Positions 13,143 through 24,477 of a stretch of 64,000 nt of DNA are shown here, in pieces. Source of the stretch: Oscillospiraceae bacterium (GTDB lineage Bacteria; Bacillota; Clostridia; Oscillospirales; Ruminococcaceae); contig SVMZ01000008.1 in NCBI GenBank assembly GCA_015067185.1, forward strand, positions 28,808-92,807, read 5' to 3'. The first letter of the stretch is position 1. The number at the start of each line of letters is the position of its first letter. The notes under the pieces were generated by a model that searched no databases, was not told where the DNA came from, and saw only the letters and a program-made list of their open reading frames with translations. A program made the translations under genes and the position numbers.

Positions 13143-13154
13143 TTCTTGAATGGA

Positions 13155-15224
13155 TTAGACAGCTGCGGGAGCAAGCAGGGAGTTGATGATGGCAGCAGCA
13201 TCCTCAACGTTTACGATTCCGTCGCCATTGATGTCTGCGCGAAGGAATTTTTCAATGGTGACATCGGAGGTGAAAGCGGAGTAGAGGGCGTTGTAGATGT
13301 TGTAGACCAGCTGTGCATCACTGGCATCAACAACACCGGTAATGTTGACATCCATACCATAGTCAACGGAGACAGCGCTGCCGTTGGCAATGCCGATATT
13401 AGCTTTGACGGTGTCGGTATCCAGCGTATCGGCGATAACAAGGTAGCAATAGGCATTGTATGTATCGGACCAGAACATGGCATTGCCATCATAGGTGTAG
13501 AGTTTGCCATCGGGGAGAGTGGAGGTGTTCTTTACCAGCCAGACGATGGAGCCGTCGATGGTAACATACTGGGAAACGGATACACCGTCAACGATAACGG
13601 TGCGGGTAACGGTAAATACAATCGGACCGGTAACAACTTTGATGGTGTAGGTGTTGTCGCCGTTGTCGATCACTTCAGCTGTTTCGCCGTTCATAACAGC
13701 GGTGACGGTATAGGTATAACCTTCTTCGGGGGTGAGAGTCAGGGTGTAGGATTCACCGACATCGGCAGAGGGGTTATAACCCTGTGCAGCACCGGCTCCG
13801 TTGCCTTCTACAGTGACTTTGGTGGTTACCTGTTCTTTATTGACAGTGATCACGATATTCCCCTTGATATCGGCGCCGGGGATGGTATAGACGGAGTCGG
13901 CAACGGTGTAAGCGGTATAAGCTTCGCCGGCAATGGTGACGGAAGTGAGGGTATAAGCCTGTCCGAGAGCAGTGGGCATGGTAAAGGAATAATCGGTGCC
14001 GTAGGTAGCGGTATCATCGGCGTTTTCGATATCTTCGGCAGCATTGCCCGCAAAGGTGACGCTGTAGCTCTTGGGAGTGCGGTCGGCATCAATTACGAGT
14101 TCACCGGTAACATTTTCAACGGTATAGCTGCCGTCATCATTTTCAATGACTTCAGCGGGTTCACCGTCGATGGTGGCTGTGATGTTGTCGTAGGTGTAGT
14201 TTTCATCGGAAACGGAGAAAGTGTAGTCTTCACCGTCGGTTACGGTGGGTTCGCCGGTAAGTCCTTCCGGCAGGGTAACGTTGTATACCGGCTTTTCTAC
14301 AGTGACAGTAAGAGTATCCGGGGAGAGAACAGCGGGAATCAGGTCGTTCTTGACGGCATTTGTTTTGTCAATGAATGCGGCAGAGGTGAGAGCAACGGTG
14401 GTTTCGCCGTCAGCAATGGCATCGAATACAAGGGTGTAGATACCGGTTCCAAGGTTTTTATCTGCGCCGTAGTCTTCCAGAATGATAACACCGGTGGAAA
14501 GTTTAACAGCAGCAGTGCCAAGGGCGGAAGCAGTCTGGTTGAACGTGAGTTTGGAAGCATCGTAGGAGAGCTTGATTTCACCGGCATTGAAGACGCTGTC
14601 GGATTCGTGAGCAGCATTGATGCCAACGGAAAGCTGCTCGCCTACCGTGACTGTGGAGGCTCCGGTGATGCCGGCGGTGTATCCGCCTTCAGCGGGAGGA
14701 ACATCACTGCCGGTGTTATCGGTAATGGTGAGGGTGGTGCTGCAGGAAGCGGCATTTTCCCAGATGTCGCCGTAATCTTTGGTGAGTTCAAGATTGGTGA
14801 TGCCTACGTTGTAGGTTCCTGCCGGTGTGTTGGCGGGAACGGTGAAGGTGATGACAGCCATGGTGGTGACACCGCTGAGGTTTTCGGCATCATCGGAAGA
14901 CCAAGTTATTATACCGTTATTGAGATTGATGTCAGCACCAGGAAAGGTGATTTTTTCATTGCCGCCATCTATCGAGGTAAAGGTCAGCGGAGAGTCACAG
15001 GTAACGGTAAATCCCATGCCATCCATGGTAATGGCCTGGCTTGCAGCGAGGGTCATGGTGACGGTCTGATCGGAGTTGCTGGTGCTGATGGTGGGTGTGT
15101 TAAGAGTAACACCGAAGGTGACCCCCAGCGTGTTATTTTCATTAACTGCCATGGCGGGAACAGCGAGAGTCAGGCTGAGAACCAGACTCAAAAGGATGCA
15201 GAGGAGTTTTCTTGCAGTTTTCAT
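13155..15224 (-). CDS. Secreted multidomain protein: two cohesin-like domains, repeated beta-rich modules, C-terminal dockerin
   Basis: Signal peptide MKTARKLLCILLSLVLSLTLAVPAMA; cohesin-like segments (VTMTLAASQ..; LSVGINAAHESDSVFNAGEIKLSYDASKLTF..); C-terminal DVNITGVVDASDAQLVYNIYN ... DINGDGIVNVEDAAAIINSLL. Confidence 0.8.
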   Translation of the reverse strand: MKTARKLLCILLSLVLSLTLAVPAMAVNENNTLGVTFGVTLNTPTISTSNSDQTVTMTLAASQAITMDGMGFTVTCDSPLTFTSIDGGNEKITFPGADINLNNGIITWSSDDAENLSGVTTMAVITFTVPANTPAGTYNVGITNLELTKDYGDIWENAASCSTTLTITDNTGSDVPPAEGGYTAGITGASTVTVGEQLSVGINAAHESDSVFNAGEIKLSYDASKLTFNQTASALGTAAVKLSTGVIILEDYGADKNLGTGIYTLVFDAIADGETTVALTSAAFIDKTNAVKNDLIPAVLSPDTLTVTVEKPVYNVTLPEGLTGEPTVTDGEDYTFSVSDENYTYDNITATIDGEPAEVIENDDGSYTVENVTGELVIDADRTPKSYSVTFAGNAAEDIENADDTATYGTDYSFTMPTALGQAYTLTSVTIAGEAYTAYTVADSVYTIPGADIKGNIVITVNKEQVTTKVTVEGNGAGAAQGYNPSADVGESYTLTLTPEEGYTYTVTAVMNGETAEVIDNGDNTYTIKVVTGPIVFTVTRTVIVDGVSVSQYVTIDGSIVWLVKNTSTLPDGKLYTYDGNAMFWSDTYNAYCYLVIADTLDTDTVKANIGIANGSAVSVDYGMDVNITGVVDASDAQLVYNIYNALYSAFTSDVTIEKFLRADINGDGIVNVEDAAAIINSLLAPAAV

Positions 15225-15264
15225 GATTGGAACTTCCTTTCAGAATAATAAAAGATTTATGTTT

Positions 15265-18216
15265 TTACCACGCGAGTGTGGTTTTGCCCAGAACAGCAGC
15301 ACGGAGGCGTGTGGCATCCGCGTTGGTGAGATCACCGGAATTGTTGACATCCACAGCAAGGGACTGCAGCGCATCCAGTGTGATTTTACCCAGCGCAGCG
15401 GCGCGGGTGCGTGTGGAATCCGCATTGGTGATCTGACCGTCGCCATTGGCATCGCCGGACAGCACCACGGCGATGATGGTGTCTGCGGTCATGTTGTCCG
15501 CAGTGAAACGGTAGCCGTCTTCGGTTGCGGTGGCGGTGAGGCGGGTATAGGTTTTGCCGCCGTCATAGCTGACAGCCACGACACAGGCGTTCTCACAGGC
15601 AACGGTAAAGGTGTTGGTGCCTTCCTTCCAGCCGCCTTCCGGTGCGGTAAGGATAATGCCGGCCTTTTCCGCAGCGGGAATGGTGGGGGTGAAATCGATG
15701 GTCGGAATGGTGAAATGGATGGTGGCAGCGGTTAACGGGGTATTGTTGCTGCCGATGGTTATGTTGTTCCATAGTGTTTCTGTTCTGCTGTAATATACAT
15801 CTTTTAGGGTACTGCAGCCATAGAAAGCAGAGTCTCCAATGGAAGTAACACTGTCGGGAATGGAGACGGAAGTCAGGCCGGAGCACCAGGAGAAAGCATA
15901 TTCACCAATGGATGTAACGGTGTTTGGAATAGTGATAGAGGGTAGTTTGTAACATCTGGAAAAAGCTGAATCGCTGATAGCGGTGAGAGAAGGTGGAAGG
16001 GTAACAGAAGTGAGGTTTACACATTCGCAAAAAGCATGGTGGCCAATATAAGTAACACTATTTGGAATATATACAGATGTTAAACCTGATACGCGAAAAG
16101 CTTCGGCACCAATGGATGTAACGGTGTCTGGAATTGAAACAGATGTCAAGGACCCACAGCTATCAAAAGCGTGTTTACCAATCGAGGTGACGCCACGATT
16201 GATTACCACTGTTTTTATAGAGGAGAGATATCGATACCAAGGCATAGTATCAATGTTATAATTACTCATAGCGCCTGTGCCGCTAATTGTCAAAGCACCA
16301 CTAGCCTTATCAAAAGTCCAAGTAAGATTGCCGCCGCAATGTCCGGCAAAATATTGGATAGTAGCAGTAGATAAATAGGTGTTTCCAGTGGAAATGGAAA
16401 TTTTCTCCCACTGTTCTTGGGAATTTCCATAGTATACAGTTTGTAATTGTGAACACCCGTAGAAAGCATTTTGACCAATAGAAGTAACACTGCTGGGGAT
16501 AGAAACGGTGGTCAAATTGGAAAAACCAGAGAATGTAGAATCATAAATAGTATGAATACTACTGTTGATGATGATGTTAGAGATAGATGATTTGTAGTTC
16601 TCCCAAAAAGCATTTTTAGACAATTGGCCGCTTCCGCCGGAAATAATTAATGTGCCTGTAGTTGTGTTAATAGACCAGCGAGCACTGTTCATACACCAAC
16701 CGAGAATGGAATTATCAACGGTGGAGATGATTTGAAATGGATGGTAATGATATGAAGAGGAGGGAGAATAAATATTGTTCCATTGAGCATAGGTACCTGT
16801 ATAATATGCGGATTTTACATTATAACAACCGTCAAAAGCAGAGGTTCCAATGGAAGTGACAGTGTTTGGGATGGTGACGGAAGTCAGGCTGGAACAGTTG
16901 TAGAAAGCATAGATCCCAATGGAAGTGACACTATCGGGAATGGTGACAGAAGTCAGGCCGGAGCAGTTGTAGAAAGCACGGTCTCCAATGGAAGTGACAC
17001 CGTTCGGAAGAATGACCGTTCCGGATATAGCATCGGGACAGAAAATGATTTCTAATTGATCAGAGTTTCCTTTGGTATACAAAAGTCCGTTTATGGATTG
17101 GTAGTTGGGGTTGGTTGCATCAACAGATATTTCTGTCAAGCTTTTACACCAGGAGAAAGCATCTTCTCCAATGGAAGTGACACTGTTTGGGATGGTGACG
17201 GAAGTCAGGCTGGAACAGTTGTTGAAAGCATAGATCCCAATGGAAGTGACAGTGTTGGGAATGGTGATGGAAGTCAGGTTTTCACAGCGGTAGAAAGCAA
17301 AATCTCCAATGGAAGTGACACCACTATTGATGACAACTGTTTTAATGGACGAGCAGTATTGATACCAAGGAGCTTTGGAAGAAGATGTATAGTCTGTCAT
17401 TGCACCTGTCCCGCTGATAGTCAGCGTGCAGGTAGCTGTGTCCAGAGACCATGTTATGTTGTCGCCGCAAGTGCCGGAATAAGTGATATGAATCGTGGCA
17501 GAGGTCAGGGGTTCATTATTGCTGCCAATAGAAATTGCACTCCACTGTGCCTCGGTGCCGTCGTAATATACGTCGTTGAGGGAAGAACAGAAGTAGAAAG
17601 CCCCGCTGCCAATGGAGGTGACTGAATCGGGTATGGAGACGGATGTTAAGCCGGAACAATAGGCAAAAGCTTCATATCCGATGGAAGTAACACTGTTGGG
17701 GAGAGTAACGGAAATCAGGCTTCTGCAGTCGGAGAAAGCTGACTTTCCAATGGAGGTGACATTGTTACCGATAGAAACAGATGCTAAATTGTAACAGTCA
17801 AAGAAAGCATGCTCTCCAATAGAGGTGACACTGTTGGGGATGGAGACAGAGGTCAGACTGGAACAGGCTTGAAAAGTATAGTCTCCAATGGAAGTGATAG
17901 TATCAGGAATGGTGACAGAGTTCAAACTATTACAGCCGCAGAAAGTATAGTCCCCAATGGAAGTGACACCATGATTGATGACGACCGTTTCAATGGAGGA
18001 GTTATACAGAAACCAAGGGACATTGGTAGAGTCTGTATAGTTACTCATGGTCCCGGTACCGCTGATGGTCAGCGTGCAGGTAGTTGTGTCCAGAGACCAT
18101 GTTACATTGTCCCCGCAGTTACCGCTGTAAGTGGCAGCGTCTGCCTCGGTGGGCATCAGCACAAACAGCAGACAGCAAAGAAACATGAGTCCCAAAATTT
18201 TGCTGAGTTTTTTCAT
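15265..18216 (-). CDS. Secreted BspA/LRR_5-type leucine-rich repeat protein with C-terminal type I-like dockerin
   Basis: Signal peptide MKKLSKILGLMFLCCLLFVLMPTEADA; many SVTIPNSVTSIGxxAFxxCSSL repeats; C-terminal DANGDGQITNADSTRTRAAALGK ... DVNNSGDLTNADATRLRAAVLGK. Confidence 0.9.
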   Translation of the reverse strand: MKKLSKILGLMFLCCLLFVLMPTEADAATYSGNCGDNVTWSLDTTTCTLTISGTGTMSNYTDSTNVPWFLYNSSIETVVINHGVTSIGDYTFCGCNSLNSVTIPDTITSIGDYTFQACSSLTSVSIPNSVTSIGEHAFFDCYNLASVSIGNNVTSIGKSAFSDCRSLISVTLPNSVTSIGYEAFAYCSGLTSVSIPDSVTSIGSGAFYFCSSLNDVYYDGTEAQWSAISIGSNNEPLTSATIHITYSGTCGDNITWSLDTATCTLTISGTGAMTDYTSSSKAPWYQYCSSIKTVVINSGVTSIGDFAFYRCENLTSITIPNTVTSIGIYAFNNCSSLTSVTIPNSVTSIGEDAFSWCKSLTEISVDATNPNYQSINGLLYTKGNSDQLEIIFCPDAISGTVILPNGVTSIGDRAFYNCSGLTSVTIPDSVTSIGIYAFYNCSSLTSVTIPNTVTSIGTSAFDGCYNVKSAYYTGTYAQWNNIYSPSSSYHYHPFQIISTVDNSILGWCMNSARWSINTTTGTLIISGGSGQLSKNAFWENYKSSISNIIINSSIHTIYDSTFSGFSNLTTVSIPSSVTSIGQNAFYGCSQLQTVYYGNSQEQWEKISISTGNTYLSTATIQYFAGHCGGNLTWTFDKASGALTISGTGAMSNYNIDTMPWYRYLSSIKTVVINRGVTSIGKHAFDSCGSLTSVSIPDTVTSIGAEAFRVSGLTSVYIPNSVTYIGHHAFCECVNLTSVTLPPSLTAISDSAFSRCYKLPSITIPNTVTSIGEYAFSWCSGLTSVSIPDSVTSIGDSAFYGCSTLKDVYYSRTETLWNNITIGSNNTPLTAATIHFTIPTIDFTPTIPAAEKAGIILTAPEGGWKEGTNTFTVACENACVVAVSYDGGKTYTRLTATATEDGYRFTADNMTADTIIAVVLSGDANGDGQITNADSTRTRAAALGKITLDALQSLAVDVNNSGDLTNADATRLRAAVLGKTTLAW
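15780..18140. repeat. Imperfect coding LRR repeats, about 70 bp periodicity, within larger supermodules
   Basis: Recurrent tccaatggaagtgacactgttggg-like segments and repeated 'CGDNxTWSLDTxTCTLTISGTG' cassettes. Confidence 0.85.
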
Positions 18217-18384
18217 AAAAAACAACCTTCTTTCCGATAGGGGAAAATACTCCACCTTATCATAATCATTTTATCCTTTTAAAAAATAAAAACAATTAAC
18301 TGGCTGCATAGTGTTTAAAATAAAAATTTTGCGCGTACACACACTTGGGATGTATGGGTGCGCACAAAATGACTGCAAAATAAA

Positions 18385-18418
18385 AAATCAGAAGCACTTT
18401 CATGTGTGCTTCTGATTT
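18385..18418 (-). terminator. Terminator downstream of zinc-ribbon paralog operon
   Basis: aaatcagaagcac ... gtgcttctgattt; T tract on the minus strand. Confidence 0.75.
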
Positions 18419-18435
18419 GATGTATTATATTCGGT

Positions 18436-19680
18436 TTAAAAGACGGGCATAGTAACCGGAATATCAATGTCATTTTTAACATTCGTGCCGTTGTCGGTGA
18501 AGGTGCTTTCGGCAAAGACGAGAGGAGACATAAAAGAGGTTGCCTGAATATCCAGAGCAATATCATTGCCGATAAATCGATTATCCGGAAAGTTGACACT
18601 GACATTCTGAGCACTGCCGGCCTTGATAAGCAGTCCGGTTCGGTTGTTCTGAAAGGTGCAGTTATTGAATGTGATCCAACCGCTGTTGTAGCAGGCGGCA
18701 CCGATATCCCAGCCGCTGAAAACACAGTTCAAAAGAGTAGTGTGCGACAGCGCGCAGAGACCGGTTTTTCCGCTGCCGGAAAAATGAAGATCGTAAAGCT
18801 GCGTGTCATGGGGATTATCTGCAGGAACAGTTACGGTATCGTGAAAGGTGGTAGCATCTTCACCGTCAGTGCTTCCGTAAATCCGGAAATTTCCCGACGG
18901 TAAGTGGAGTTCTCCGTGATAGGAAACAGGGGGAAGGTAAAGGATGATGACGGAATTTTCCAGAGTCTCTTTGGTAAAGGAATTGAAAAGCGTTTGAAGA
19001 TCCTCTGTCGTATTCATGGGTGCGGTGGTGTGATCGTAGCGGATAACAGCAAGTGGAAGCACCGTGAAGAGGTGGGTGATCTCAAGAGTATCTCCGTTTT
19101 TCATCTTTACCGTAAAATAAATAGTGTTGCTGAAACACTCAGCGCTGTAATTTATGGTACAGCCGATCAAAGAAAAGGAGGAGGTATAGAGGGAATGCGG
19201 GGCTTCAAATATAGTCAGACTTCTTCCGCCGTTGGCGGGAACAGTAGTGAAAGAGATGTTTTCGATCAGAGGGAGAACTTCAGAAGGAAATAAAAGTTGG
19301 CCATCGCGGTAAACAAACAGATTAATGTGGGAGCTTTCGGTGGAACCGTCTTGCGCGATGAAGTAGGTGGAAGAGGTCACGGGGAAGGGGAGAGAAGAGG
19401 GGGAATCCATATCTTTTCTTAAAACAAAAGTATATTCTTCCCCTTTAAGGGTATAAGTGAGGTTGCCTTCGCCGGAATAACTTCTGGGAATATGGATAAG
19501 AGATGCGACAAAAGTCAAAAGCAGTATAAAAAGCAGCGTGGATATAACAGTGAAGGTTTTACGGCGCCATATCTTAGGCAAAGGGATAGTGTTTTTCTGT
19601 ATCTGTGATGTGGCGCAGTGCAAACAGAAAGAGGCGGAATTATCGAGGGCAGCGCCGCAGGATATGCATTTTTTACTCAT
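18436..19680 (-). CDS. Zinc-ribbon, single-TM, beta-helix-like protein (paralog B)
   Basis: N-terminal CISCGAALDNSASFCLHC zinc ribbon, TM, C-terminal beta-helix-like repeats (NNCTFQNNRTGL, ESTFTDNGTNV). Confidence 0.7.
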   Translation of the reverse strand: MSKKCISCGAALDNSASFCLHCATSQIQKNTIPLPKIWRRKTFTVISTLLFILLLTFVASLIHIPRSYSGEGNLTYTLKGEEYTFVLRKDMDSPSSLPFPVTSSTYFIAQDGSTESSHINLFVYRDGQLLFPSEVLPLIENISFTTVPANGGRSLTIFEAPHSLYTSSFSLIGCTINYSAECFSNTIYFTVKMKNGDTLEITHLFTVLPLAVIRYDHTTAPMNTTEDLQTLFNSFTKETLENSVIILYLPPVSYHGELHLPSGNFRIYGSTDGEDATTFHDTVTVPADNPHDTQLYDLHFSGSGKTGLCALSHTTLLNCVFSGWDIGAACYNSGWITFNNCTFQNNRTGLLIKAGSAQNVSVNFPDNRFIGNDIALDIQATSFMSPLVFAESTFTDNGTNVKNDIDIPVTMPVF

Positions 19681-19718
19681 TAAGGTGATCCCGTCCTTTC
19701 ATTGAGGAGAGATGAATG

Positions 19719-20978
19719 CTATTCGAAGATGGCCTCGGAAACATCCATGGTGCAGTCGGTATAATTGATGATATCGGTGGTGTTATTGATGAATTTTGCA
19801 TTGTAAAAAGTGAAGGTATCGGTAAAGGGAATATGTTTGAGGGAAAGTGCGATATTGTTTTCTTTAAAAATACAATATCCAAACGTGTTGGAAGAGGCAT
19901 TGGCGTCGCCGGGATTGTTGGATTCAAAGCCGATATTGTTTCGTTCAAAGGTGCATTTGTCAACGATAGCCCAGCCACCATCCAGTACATTCAAAGCAAT
20001 GTCGTGGTCTTCAAAAACACAATTGTCAAAGATGGCGGCAGAAGTAAGGGTGAAACCGATACTGTCTGTGCCGTTGCCTTTAAAACAGATGGTATCAAAA
20101 TGTGCCAATGTCGGGCTGCGGGTGGATACCGATACATCGCCGGTAAAGGTGGTTATGGCATCGCCTTCTCTGCTTCCGCATAAATTGTAAACTCTGGTGT
20201 GATAGCTGAACCCGCCTTCATAAGTAACTGGAGGGAGATAGATGGAGATAGACGTGTTGGGGGTGTATTCTTTTTCCAGTTTGTCAAAAAGTGCCTGAAG
20301 TTCTTCAATGGTATTCATCGGTTCATCTTCGGGGTAAATGCGTACAAGTGGAACCTCTTCAATTGTAATCGTATGAGTCAAAATAATCTTGTCACCGTTT
20401 TTCATCGTAATAGTCCAGCGAATATCGTTGGTTTTGTTTTTGGTGGTATAGAAATATTCAGCGGAAATGAGAGCATTGGGAGCAAGAGCGGTATATTCAA
20501 CCATTTGAAAAACCAACGGTTCTGCATCATCGTGAGGAAGAGAATCAACCTGGATGTTTTTTACTTGGGAATAAAATTTCTCGCTGACAGAAAAACTCAT
20601 GTTTTGAGAAACATAAAGACGGGAGTCGGCAGTAGTGATTTCATCGGGGGTCAGAGAGAAATAGTGCTTTTCATCAGGAACAAATTTATCTTTTGGCCCA
20701 TCTCCGAAAAATTTTAAATAAACATTATATATCTCACCGTCATCATCGGTATAGACAACACTGGCGCCGCCCTCATAGGTTTTGGGACCGAATTTTATAT
20801 ACATACCAAAAGCAAGAATAGCAGCGAGCAATATAATAATGAAAACAATAAGCAATTTTTTCTTCCAGGGTCTGACAACAGGAGCGGAATGTTTTACAAC
20901 CTGGCTGTTGGCACAATAAGGACAGAAAGAGGCACCCTCGGGGAGTTCTTTTCCGCATTTTATGCATTTATTATTCAA
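19719..20978 (-). CDS. Zinc-ribbon, single-TM, beta-helix-like protein (paralog A)
   Basis: N-terminal CIKCGKELPEGASFCPYC, TM LLIVFIIILLAAILAFGMYI, beta-helix-like FDNCVFEDHDIAL..VDKCTFERNNIGF. Confidence 0.72.
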   Translation of the reverse strand: MNNKCIKCGKELPEGASFCPYCANSQVVKHSAPVVRPWKKKLLIVFIIILLAAILAFGMYIKFGPKTYEGGASVVYTDDDGEIYNVYLKFFGDGPKDKFVPDEKHYFSLTPDEITTADSRLYVSQNMSFSVSEKFYSQVKNIQVDSLPHDDAEPLVFQMVEYTALAPNALISAEYFYTTKNKTNDIRWTITMKNGDKIILTHTITIEEVPLVRIYPEDEPMNTIEELQALFDKLEKEYTPNTSISIYLPPVTYEGGFSYHTRVYNLCGSREGDAITTFTGDVSVSTRSPTLAHFDTICFKGNGTDSIGFTLTSAAIFDNCVFEDHDIALNVLDGGWAIVDKCTFERNNIGFESNNPGDANASSNTFGYCIFKENNIALSLKHIPFTDTFTFYNAKFINNTTDIINYTDCTMDVSEAIFE

Positions 20979-21105
20979 AAAATCACGTCCTGTTCAATGT
21001 AATGACGGTGTGCTGCGGTTTCTTCTGAGTACCGGGAAAGGCAGTGTTCGTGTGAGAAGGATACGATGGTTTGGGAAGAAATCTTTTTCTGAGAAATAGG
21101 ATTTA

Positions 21106-21810
21106 TCAGAGCATTTCCATAAGATGAAGGACATTTTTAAAGCGCTTTTTCGGGTTAGTCATTGTACAACGCTGTACAATACGCCCCATGCGGCCGGCAG
21201 CTAATTCAATGGAAGGATGTTTTCCGGTCAGCATGATGTTGAGAAGGACACCGAGTGCATATAGATCGGCACGCTCGTCAGATTGGGAAATACCGTACTG
21301 TTCGGGGGCAGCAAAGCCGGTGGTGCCGAGAATTTGTGTGTCGGAGGAGTTCTCTGTTTTGAAAATGCGGGAGGCATCAAAATCAATCAGCACTGCAGTG
21401 TCTCCGCGGATGATGACGTTTTCCGGTTTGATATCCCGATGGACAGCACCCAGAGAGTGAAACACCCAGAGAGCGGAGCAGAGCTGAAGCAGGATCTTTT
21501 TAGCTTGAGAAGGGGGGAGCAGAGTGCCCTCCAGAAGATAGTGCAGGGTATCCCCCTGAATAAATTCTTCCAGAACAATAACTTTTCCGTTCTGTTCCGC
21601 CACCTCCATGATCTGGGGAAGATGCGGGGAGGAAATGGGAAGCAGTTTGCGGTAGACTTCACCATTGCCTTCAAAATGACGGAAAATATATTGTGTTCCG
21701 TTTTTCTTGTGTCGTACAACCGATACACTTCCGCGAGAATTACTTTTGAGTTGTTTTAAAATGTCAAACTCACGGGACAAAGAGTCGAGCAAATTATCGT
21801 AAACAGTCAC
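21106..21810 (-). CDS. Hanks-type serine/threonine protein kinase (DFD variant)
   Basis: GAVHRDIKPENVII, VLIDFDASR, GTTGFAAPEQYG, DLYALGVLLNIMLTGKHPS. Confidence 0.9.
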   Translation of the reverse strand: MTVYDNLLDSLSREFDILKQLKSNSRGSVSVVRHKKNGTQYIFRHFEGNGEVYRKLLPISSPHLPQIMEVAEQNGKVIVLEEFIQGDTLHYLLEGTLLPPSQAKKILLQLCSALWVFHSLGAVHRDIKPENVIIRGDTAVLIDFDASRIFKTENSSDTQILGTTGFAAPEQYGISQSDERADLYALGVLLNIMLTGKHPSIELAAGRMGRIVQRCTMTNPKKRFKNVLHLMEML

Positions 21811-21937
21811 TTTTTTTCCTTTTCCTATGCAGCCAGCATATTGTTTTTATTGTTTTAAAATTGTAAAATATAATTAGTATTATAGAATATTAATAGTATT
21901 ATAGATTAATGTTCTTTTTTTGTAAAGGGGTAATATT

Positions 21938-22363
21938 TTGGAAAAGCGAAATACCGATGATCTGCATCAGGCTCTTATGGCATCACCGGACTTGGATGGA
22001 TTTCTGTCGGATAATCAGGAGAATTTCATTGAAGAAAATATTTCGGATAGTTTGAATAAGCTTTTTAGTAAGAAAAATGTAACAAAAGCAGCACTAGCCA
22101 AACAGTCAGGGATGAGTGAGATATATCTGCATCAGATTTTTGCGGGAAGAAGAACACCGTCACGCAACCGTTTGTTGTGTATCTGTTTTGGAATGCAGGT
22201 ATCGCTGGAAGAGACACAGGAACTGTTGAAAAGCTGTGGACTGGCACAGCTCTATCCCAAATTTAAACGTGATGCAATTATTATTTATGGTTTAGTGCAC
22301 GAAGCTACATTGTTTGAGACAAACGACAAACTGTTTGAGGAAAATGAGGAAACACTTTGCTGA
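21938..22363 (+). CDS. XRE-type helix-turn-helix regulator
   Basis: VTKAALAKQSGMSEIYLHQIFAGRRTPSRNRLLCICFGMQVSLEETQELLKSCG. Confidence 0.85.
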   Translation: MEKRNTDDLHQALMASPDLDGFLSDNQENFIEENISDSLNKLFSKKNVTKAALAKQSGMSEIYLHQIFAGRRTPSRNRLLCICFGMQVSLEETQELLKSCGLAQLYPKFKRDAIIIYGLVHEATLFETNDKLFEENEETLC

Positions 22364-22707: not shown

Positions 22708-24477
22708 GTGAAAAGGATAGTGGGAATTATTTTGGTATTATTGATGCTCTGTGCCTGTGGAGAGGCAGAGCAAAGTGGAGAAACATCGTTTGACAGTGTT
22801 GGGGAATCCCTCAGCGAAAGTGCATCGGAGGATATTGAAACAGAAACTTCGGAAGAAATATCCTTGGAAGAAGAGCAGGAACCTCCTTCACAGGAAGAAC
22901 GGATCAAAGAAAATCTTTTGCAAAACATGACCGATTTTACCGATGGCTTCTATCCTATGACAGATACGGGGATAATGATATCGCCGGAAAATATCAGTAT
23001 AACAGAGGAGAATGGGTATTTTTCCTTTGATATGTGTATGGAAAAAGCAGATGGGAAGCAAGCGGTGATTCATCTTGATGGAGTAATGATGGGGGATGAC
23101 AGAGCAGTTTGCGGCGGATTTCTCGATGCAGATGCAGATACCTGGGCTTTCTGCGGGCTCCATTATGCAGCTTTTATCGATAAAGAGACACTGAAAGTGA
23201 CGGAAGTGACACCGGCATTTTCTGATATCGAAGAAGATGTGTGGATTAATGGTGTGATGAAGCTGGATGAAAATGTTGCGGTTGTAGCAACAGAAACAGG
23301 AAGTGACGTTGACGCTGACTTGGAAAAGATTAAAACATGGTTTGCGGTTTATTCCCCGGAGGGGGAAATGACAGAGAAGATTATTCTTGAAGAAAAAGCG
23401 GTTTGGGAAGCTGCAGATTATGTTTGTCCCATTTTTGCACAGAAAATGTTTATTCTGAATACTGAAGAGGGCCGGATTCTTGATTGTGGAATAACAACAG
23501 TCAATCTGGATACAGGAAAAAATTATTATACTTATGTACAAGCTGCCTTTGAGGCCGATGGAAAAAAGGTGGTAATCTATTGTTATCGTGACGAGGAAAG
23601 CTATGAACTGGAGAACTACATTGCCATACTTTGGGAAGCGGGAAACCCGGTTGGAAATATCATGATGGGCAAACCGAATATCAGTACAGGAAGAGAAAAT
23701 GAGCCGCTTGATGGAGAGTTTCTCACAGACAGGAAAGTTGTCTGCACGGACGATTATTCCGGCATGGTGATAGAGCTGGATTTTGAAAAAAGGGAAAGCT
23801 GCGTAACCTATGCATTGGAGGAACGACATCTGATAACATTGCTCGAAGATAGTGACGACGGAAAATATTCTCTCTGGACATCAGGTGACATCAATTATGG
23901 CGATGTGTTTGCGCATAATGTTGTTCTTAAAAATAACCGTTCCGGAAAAATCAGTTATATTGGTCCAGGAGGCGGGATGTATGGAGGCTATGGCGGGGCG
24001 GGATTTTTCATGAATAACGATGTTTACAACTTTTCCTCTTCTTTCATGGAGGTTTTTAATCCTGAAAGCGGTGAGAAGATCTTTGATATGGGGAAAAATT
24101 TTTACCTGGGAAGAGATGAAAAGACGAACGTGGAAAGGGTTCTGTTTACATTCCGAAGAGATCCGGCAGAATATACTTATATTGTCGTATATGCAGAGAG
24201 CGATGAGTGGGAAACGCGGCATAATACACCGGAAGGAGTTTTCGAGCACAATTGTAATTACAAACTGGGATTTCTCGATAAGGAAGGAAACCTTGTCGAA
24301 AGCTATGACATGGGGATACCTGTGAGATCAACTCAGTTTGGACTTCATACGGTGAGAATGAGATATTCCGAAAAACAGCTGACATTTATGGTGCGCAACA
24401 CAGGAAAAGGTTATGATGGGTTTGACTATGTCTTCGATATGGTGAATCATACAGTTACAGTATTGGATGCTCAATAA
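22708..24477 (+). CDS. Putative lipoprotein of unknown function
   Basis: GTG start after aaaaaggagg; signal II-like MKRIVGIILVLLMLCAC, acidic Ser/Glu-rich linker, large beta-rich domain. Confidence 0.75.
   Translation: MKRIVGIILVLLMLCACGEAEQSGETSFDSVGESLSESASEDIETETSEEISLEEEQEPPSQEERIKENLLQNMTDFTDGFYPMTDTGIMISPENISITEENGYFSFDMCMEKADGKQAVIHLDGVMMGDDRAVCGGFLDADADTWAFCGLHYAAFIDKETLKVTEVTPAFSDIEEDVWINGVMKLDENVAVVATETGSDVDADLEKIKTWFAVYSPEGEMTEKIILEEKAVWEAADYVCPIFAQKMFILNTEEGRILDCGITTVNLDTGKNYYTYVQAAFEADGKKVVIYCYRDEESYELENYIAILWEAGNPVGNIMMGKPNISTGRENEPLDGEFLTDRKVVCTDDYSGMVIELDFEKRESCVTYALEERHLITLLEDSDDGKYSLWTSGDINYGDVFAHNVVLKNNRSGKISYIGPGGGMYGGYGGAGFFMNNDVYNFSSSFMEVFNPESGEKIFDMGKNFYLGRDEKTNVERVLFTFRRDPAEYTYIVVYAESDEWETRHNTPEGVFEHNCNYKLGFLDKEGNLVESYDMGIPVRSTQFGLHTVRMRYSEKQLTFMVRNTGKGYDGFDYVFDMVNHTVTVLDAQ

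Follow-up and report, generated by a model that had tools for sequence, protein, structure and literature searches.

A predicted signalling module of a Hanks-type kinase, an XRE-type regulator and zinc-ribbon membrane proteins in an Oscillospiraceae bacterium

Genes and predicted proteins at the locus

The window analysed here is a stretch of 64,000 nucleotides from an Oscillospiraceae bacterium (contig SVMZ01000008.1). A preliminary description, made from the letters of this DNA alone, had placed in it a kinase gene followed by two tandem paralogs, a divergent HTH gene and a terminator behind the last paralog. All four open reading frames were found at the positions given there, the starts of the kinase and HTH genes are separated by 127 bp, and the terminator is a strong hairpin (18418-18385 on the minus strand, -18.7 kcal/mol, z -6.9) with a T-tract. 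The loss of the beta3 Lys in the kinase, an operator palindrome and the promoters are additions to that description. The features are as follows.

18385-18418, minus strand: intrinsic terminator closing the kinase-ZR1-ZR2 unit
18436-19680, minus strand: ZR2, zinc-ribbon/TM protein (ATG start, 414 aa)
19719-20978, minus strand: ZR1, zinc-ribbon/TM protein (TTG start, 419 aa)
21106-21810, minus strand: soluble Hanks-type kinase (GTG start, 234 aa)
21826-21843, no strand assigned: predicted XRE operator, palindrome TATGC-AGCCA-GCATA (21826-21840) plus a conserved TTG
21841-21869, plus strand: predicted weak XRE promoter, TTGTTT (21841-21846), 17 bp, TAAAAT (21864-21869)
21898-21926, minus strand: predicted kinase-operon promoter, TTTACA-17-TATAAT, 11/12
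21938-22363, plus strand: XRE/HTH regulator (TTG start, 141 aa)

The assignment of a DFD-type Hanks kinase upstream of the paralogs was borne out by a Pfam Pkinase match (PF00069, 96.9 bits against a curated cut-off of 31.7; 1.7e-27). No TM segment is predicted in the protein. Its HRDIKPEN motif is intact and DFD stands for DFG, so that the HRD-Asp and DFG-Asp of a canonical active Ser/Thr kinase are present, whereas the beta3 Lys is replaced by R44; the first two glycines of the G-loop are missing. E51 aligns at the position of the alphaC Glu, an assignment from the alignment only and at a position that varies in the other kinases. The PASTA kinase model NF033483 gave 100 bits against a cut-off of 450, with the kinase domain alone matching. 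PASTA/PrkC-type Hanks receptor kinases (StkP, PknB) have the kinase fold in common with this protein and are its closest solved relatives by sequence, but the window kinase has neither a TM segment nor PASTA repeats, its N-lobe is non-canonical and it has a dedicated XRE partner.

The two paralogs likewise proved to be zinc-ribbon/TM proteins with beta-helix-like parts, as had been described. ZR1 matches Zn_Ribbon_1 above the Pfam cut-off (1.8e-6), with the ribbon at its N-terminus (C5, C8, C19 and C22). In its AF2 model (pLDDT 90.5), helix 38-63 forms the TM segment, a beta-sandwich spans about residues 67-215 and the C-terminal part is strand-rich, consistent with a beta-helix. ZR2 shares 29% identity and the same layout with ZR1; its Zn_Ribbon_1 match (0.0035) is below the cut-off, and it matches Pfam Beta_helix at 4e-6. 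Searching Foldseek with the complete ZR1 model gave nothing informative. As a possible marker, the residue following the fourth Cys of the zinc ribbon was considered and dropped because the background was too small.

The regulator belongs to a family of about 140 aa. In the Pfam search its HTH_31 score (24.6 bits) was below the cut-off of 27. The AF2 model (pLDDT 93) has nine helices with the HTH at about residues 35-99, and matches C.Esp1396I, ClgR and DdrO in Foldseek (probability 1.00, target TM up to 0.84, with weak E values of 0.02-0.06); the predicted structure thus matches the HTH fold of XRE type. The restriction-modification controller C.Esp1396I and DdrO also have in common with the XRE protein self-regulation at a palindrome, which is a prediction in the present case. 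Unlike them, the XRE protein has an N-terminal helix with an invariant Thr and is linked to a kinase, and restriction or DNA-damage genes are absent. According to the model and the homologues, this helix begins at the invariant T6: residue 6 is Thr in all of the 108 kinase-linked homologues having a residue there (108/108). T6, Y63, R76, L105 and D112 are near-invariant in the family.

On the minus strand beside the module lie two large surface-type genes (13155-18255), encoding a BspA-LRR protein with dockerin and a cohesin/dockerin protein; a 700-aa ORF on the opposite strand to them (13146-15248) is probably a shadow ORF. The XRE gene is followed by a gene for a 589-aa lipoprotein-like protein (22708-24477, plus strand), which gave no significant Pfam match.

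Conservation of the gene neighbourhood

Related loci were gathered with one XRE protein as query. The host genome contains three Pkinase matches in 2.7 Mb, so by our own estimate an XRE gene would lie beside a kinase gene by chance in about 1% of cases. Among XRE genes from the family and the order to which the host belongs, most have a Hanks kinase gene next to them. In a sample drawn from the whole phylum, a kinase lies beside XRE at 15 of 17 loci, and Listeria shows the same arrangement; the XRE-adjacent kinases of this sample were mostly TM-fused, and no ZR-TM neighbour was seen within the span covered. No kinase was found near any of 10 distant XRE relatives without the N-terminal helix (0/10). 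Distant relatives of 330-490 aa, with neither a kinase neighbour nor the N-terminal Thr helix, were observed (L037-L049). The kinase gene may be divergent from XRE, co-directional with it (often with 4-bp overlaps) or convergent, which indicates that the linkage is more than a shared promoter. XRE proteins of the window and of Blautia are about 70% identical, and this suggests horizontal transfer.

A ZR-TM partner on the same strand was found near 42 of 49 soluble kinases, which are about 235 aa long, versus 2 of 37 TM-fused kinases (Fisher p = 1e-14, a value that ignores kinship and overstates the independent evidence). Since the soluble kinases are essentially one clade, the 42/49 does not represent 49 independent events; the pairing changes four times on the tree, and an independent-pairs test had too few pairs for a result. 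The evidence for the pairing lies in the retention of the trio over deep divergence in several orders (XRE<>KIN-ZR, XRE-ZR-KIN, ZR-XRE-KIN and XRE<>ZR-KIN). The co-occurrence on which the proposal of a module depended was therefore found at two levels, with XRE and kinase adjacent across Bacillota and the ZR/TM partners conserved in the soluble-kinase clade. Exceptions exist: at some loci XRE has no kinase in reach, at some the soluble kinase has no ZR-TM, and in L052, which is nested within the soluble clade, the kinase is TM-fused and a ZR-TM partner is missing.

The soluble clade yielded no fusion of ZR and kinase. Three loci (L147, L149 and L154) carry a further kinase, of about 950 aa and roughly 1-2 kb away from XRE, whose single chain combines a zinc ribbon at the N-terminus with a kinase, a TM and a long ectodomain; this layout also occurs in L032, L117, L129 and L035. 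LRR ectodomains are of BspA type on ZR-TM proteins and of other types on TM-fused kinases, and homology between the ectodomains of the two groups was not found beyond one marginal match. In a genome of the same genus, the kinase is split by a frameshift into two overlapping ORFs of 143 and 112 aa (L051:8530-9242), which reflects either decay or a mistake in the assembly; XRE and the two ZR genes are intact there. XRE, kinase and ZR-TM genes are also present in a sequence filed as a phage from human faeces (L201, MT837913.1), which may be a bacterial contig.

The intergenic palindrome and predicted facing promoters

TATGC-N5-GCATATTG is exact in 25 aligned divergent intergenic regions, the flanks of which have drifted and are poorly conserved. 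The palindrome was first spotted by eye in these same regions, and its exactness among the 25 selected loci is therefore circular. The relaxed pattern TWWGC-N5-GCWWA is present in 36 of the 112 regions upstream of XRE, where mononucleotide shuffles give an expectation of 0.16, and it is about 50-fold richer there than in the remaining sequence of these loci. Upstream of XRE, the palindrome recurs in three gene layouts, including the co-directional one, and a convergent clade has the variant half-site TTAGC-N5-GCTAA in this place. The exact extended site has a single, intergenic copy in the genome sequence searched (about 81% complete). A pattern with a 4-bp spacer gave zero matches; the actual spacer is 5.

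The preliminary description had suggested that the HTH protein controls the kinase or is controlled by it. The conserved palindrome between the two genes gives the first of these proposals a concrete element, and repression in particular is suggested by the promoter geometry. On the XRE strand, the operator is followed by TTGTTT-17-TAAAAT, conserved as TTGTnT-N17-TAnAnT in the footprint. The kinase strand has TTTACA-17-TATAAT, which begins close to the start codon of XRE and is directed towards the XRE promoter; it replaces an earlier reading of a kinase promoter overlapping the operator. Most of the divergent soluble-kinase loci have a near-consensus site in a comparable position. The operator is centred at about -43 from the estimated XRE start, which is the position of a class II activator, as with lambda cI at PRM. 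It lies at about +51 to +65 of the estimated kinase transcript, where bound XRE would act as a roadblock. A near-direct repeat, TAGTATTATAG, with two copies about 20 bp apart (about 21870-21905), lies over the predicted kinase promoter and was not seen in the relatives.

Additional sites were observed in related loci. In L156 an exact 13-base site lies before the gene of a beta-helix-like protein, and L133 has another near a secreted-protein gene; variant sites precede genes for an SLH-domain protein (L103) and a lipoprotein (L080), both types being read from sequence. These sites hint at surface proteins as a possible output of XRE in relatives. A wider regulon within the host genome was considered and rejected, as the other perfect palindromes in the sequence searched are all inside ORFs.

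A candidate split receptor kinase and competing readings

The explanation we favour, and consider rather probable, is that these four genes together make up a conserved module for signalling, in which a split receptor kinase is controlled by a dedicated XRE switch. From sequence comparison the module and its operator are well supported, and the split receptor, the repression and the transfer of a signal to XRE are plausible. ZR1, which we propose as a sensor subunit, and ZR2 would display a variable ectodomain outside the cell, and their architecture suggests that the cytoplasmic zinc ribbons serve to recruit the soluble kinase-like protein or to gate it. The pair of ZR and kinase would then do non-covalently what one TM-fused receptor kinase does in related modules. 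XRE is predicted to bind the conserved palindrome between its own gene and the kinase gene; the geometry of the site suggests that it would thereby stop the kinase-ZR transcript and favour the weak promoter of its own gene, giving a two-state switch. A signal at the ectodomain might alter the occupancy of XRE through the kinase, either by phosphorylation, with T6 as the prime candidate, or by direct binding. As a result, expression would be reset for the module itself and, in some of the relatives, for secreted proteins encoded next to it. In a more specific and doubtful version, exchangeable zinc-ribbon/TM receptors with beta-helix or LRR ectodomains would dock a soluble kinase that works with Arg for the catalytic Lys, balanced by the Asp of DFD, and flip the facing-promoter XRE switch via Thr6 phosphorylation, as a bacterial split-receptor-kinase counterpart.

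It is possible, though we think it somewhat unlikely, that the kinase is catalytically dead and serves as a nucleotide sensor or scaffold that is tethered at the membrane by the ZR-TM proteins and titrates XRE by binding, without phosphorylation. The beta3 Lys position is R or H in 41 of 47 soluble kinases and the G-loop is degraded, while the Lys is kept in 20 of 26 single-TM kinases; DFG is often DFD or DFN in the soluble clade. Because the beta3 Lys is replaced, kinase activity should not be assumed, and the Arg may indicate its absence. However, the HRD-Asp and DFG-Asp are unchanged in all of the kinases compared (90/90) and the catalytic-loop Lys is retained in 81 of 90, which is unusual for dead kinases. 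The closest described group is the DYD family (PMC12599244). This family has the beta3 Lys to Arg change, a second Asp in the DFG motif and an occurrence in Bacillota in common with the window kinase, but the window kinase is soluble and has Phe for Tyr. Of the family's features, beta3 Arg and DxD are present, and the Tyr and membrane association are not; the alphaC Glu, absent from the family, may have a counterpart in the aligned E51 of the window kinase. The DYD motif itself occurs in three of our loci (L074, L091 and L110), as opposed to DFD in the window. DYD kinases with beta3 Arg are mostly classed as pseudokinases in PMC12599244, yet that paper predicts ATP binding for them and a pairing of the Arg with the motif's second Asp; operon partners are not described in the text consulted.

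Less likely is a reading in which XRE only autoregulates, the kinase operon is a passive neighbour and XRE is no target of the kinase. In convergent loci the palindrome stays with XRE and is found on its upstream side alone, so that XRE may there have no target but its own gene, and the palindrome is unique in this genome apart from the copies within ORFs. Against this reading, adjacency in three orientations, including the convergent one, is unexplained by shared promoters, and in L103, where genes separate XRE and kinase, the site remains at the kinase.

We regard it as improbable that ZR1 and ZR2 are surface proteins which share the operon but have unrelated roles, or are substrates instead of sensors. 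The contact of ZR and kinase is itself a prediction, and two soluble-kinase loci related to the window (L133 and L147) carry no ZR-TM proteins; but the 42/49 association was kept through several gene orders. The preliminary description had offered membrane receptors or kinase substrates as alternatives. No invariant or nearly invariant Ser/Thr was found in the cytoplasmic N-termini of the ZR proteins, which favours a role as sensor or anchor over that of substrate, so that the receptor proposal fits better than the substrate proposal. An anti-phage defence system with a PD-T4-6-type kinase and its regulator is very improbable, because the PADLOC PD-T4-6 models that match the kinase (9e-33) cover only the shared kinase domain, no neighbour scanned had a strong PADLOC match (0), and the module is flanked by surface-protein and housekeeping genes, named from general knowledge.

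The split receptor kinase with its XRE switch is apparently a signalling unit undescribed so far, as no description of the module was found in the open-access literature searched. To our knowledge, the targets and ligands of Hanks-type kinases outside the PASTA group are mostly unknown. The module offers a linked regulator, a defined candidate DNA site and candidate sensor subunits, and the path from an outside signal to a promoter is therefore testable with four genes. The natural exchange of Lys for Arg, in an active site that is conserved in other respects, is also relevant to the definition of a pseudokinase. The XRE-kinase pair of Listeria suggests relevance outside gut commensals. L. innocua and L. 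monocytogenes both have a divergent pair of XRE and three-TM kinase (L200 and L202). The L. innocua locus (NZ_CP095725.1) shares with the window the divergent XRE and kinase, the beta3 Arg and DFD, but differs in its three-TM kinase, the lack of a ZR-TM protein and a DUF5067 protein downstream. The L. monocytogenes kinase of the pair is presumably lmo0618. Deletion of lmo0618 reduced intracellular replication (PMC3091722).
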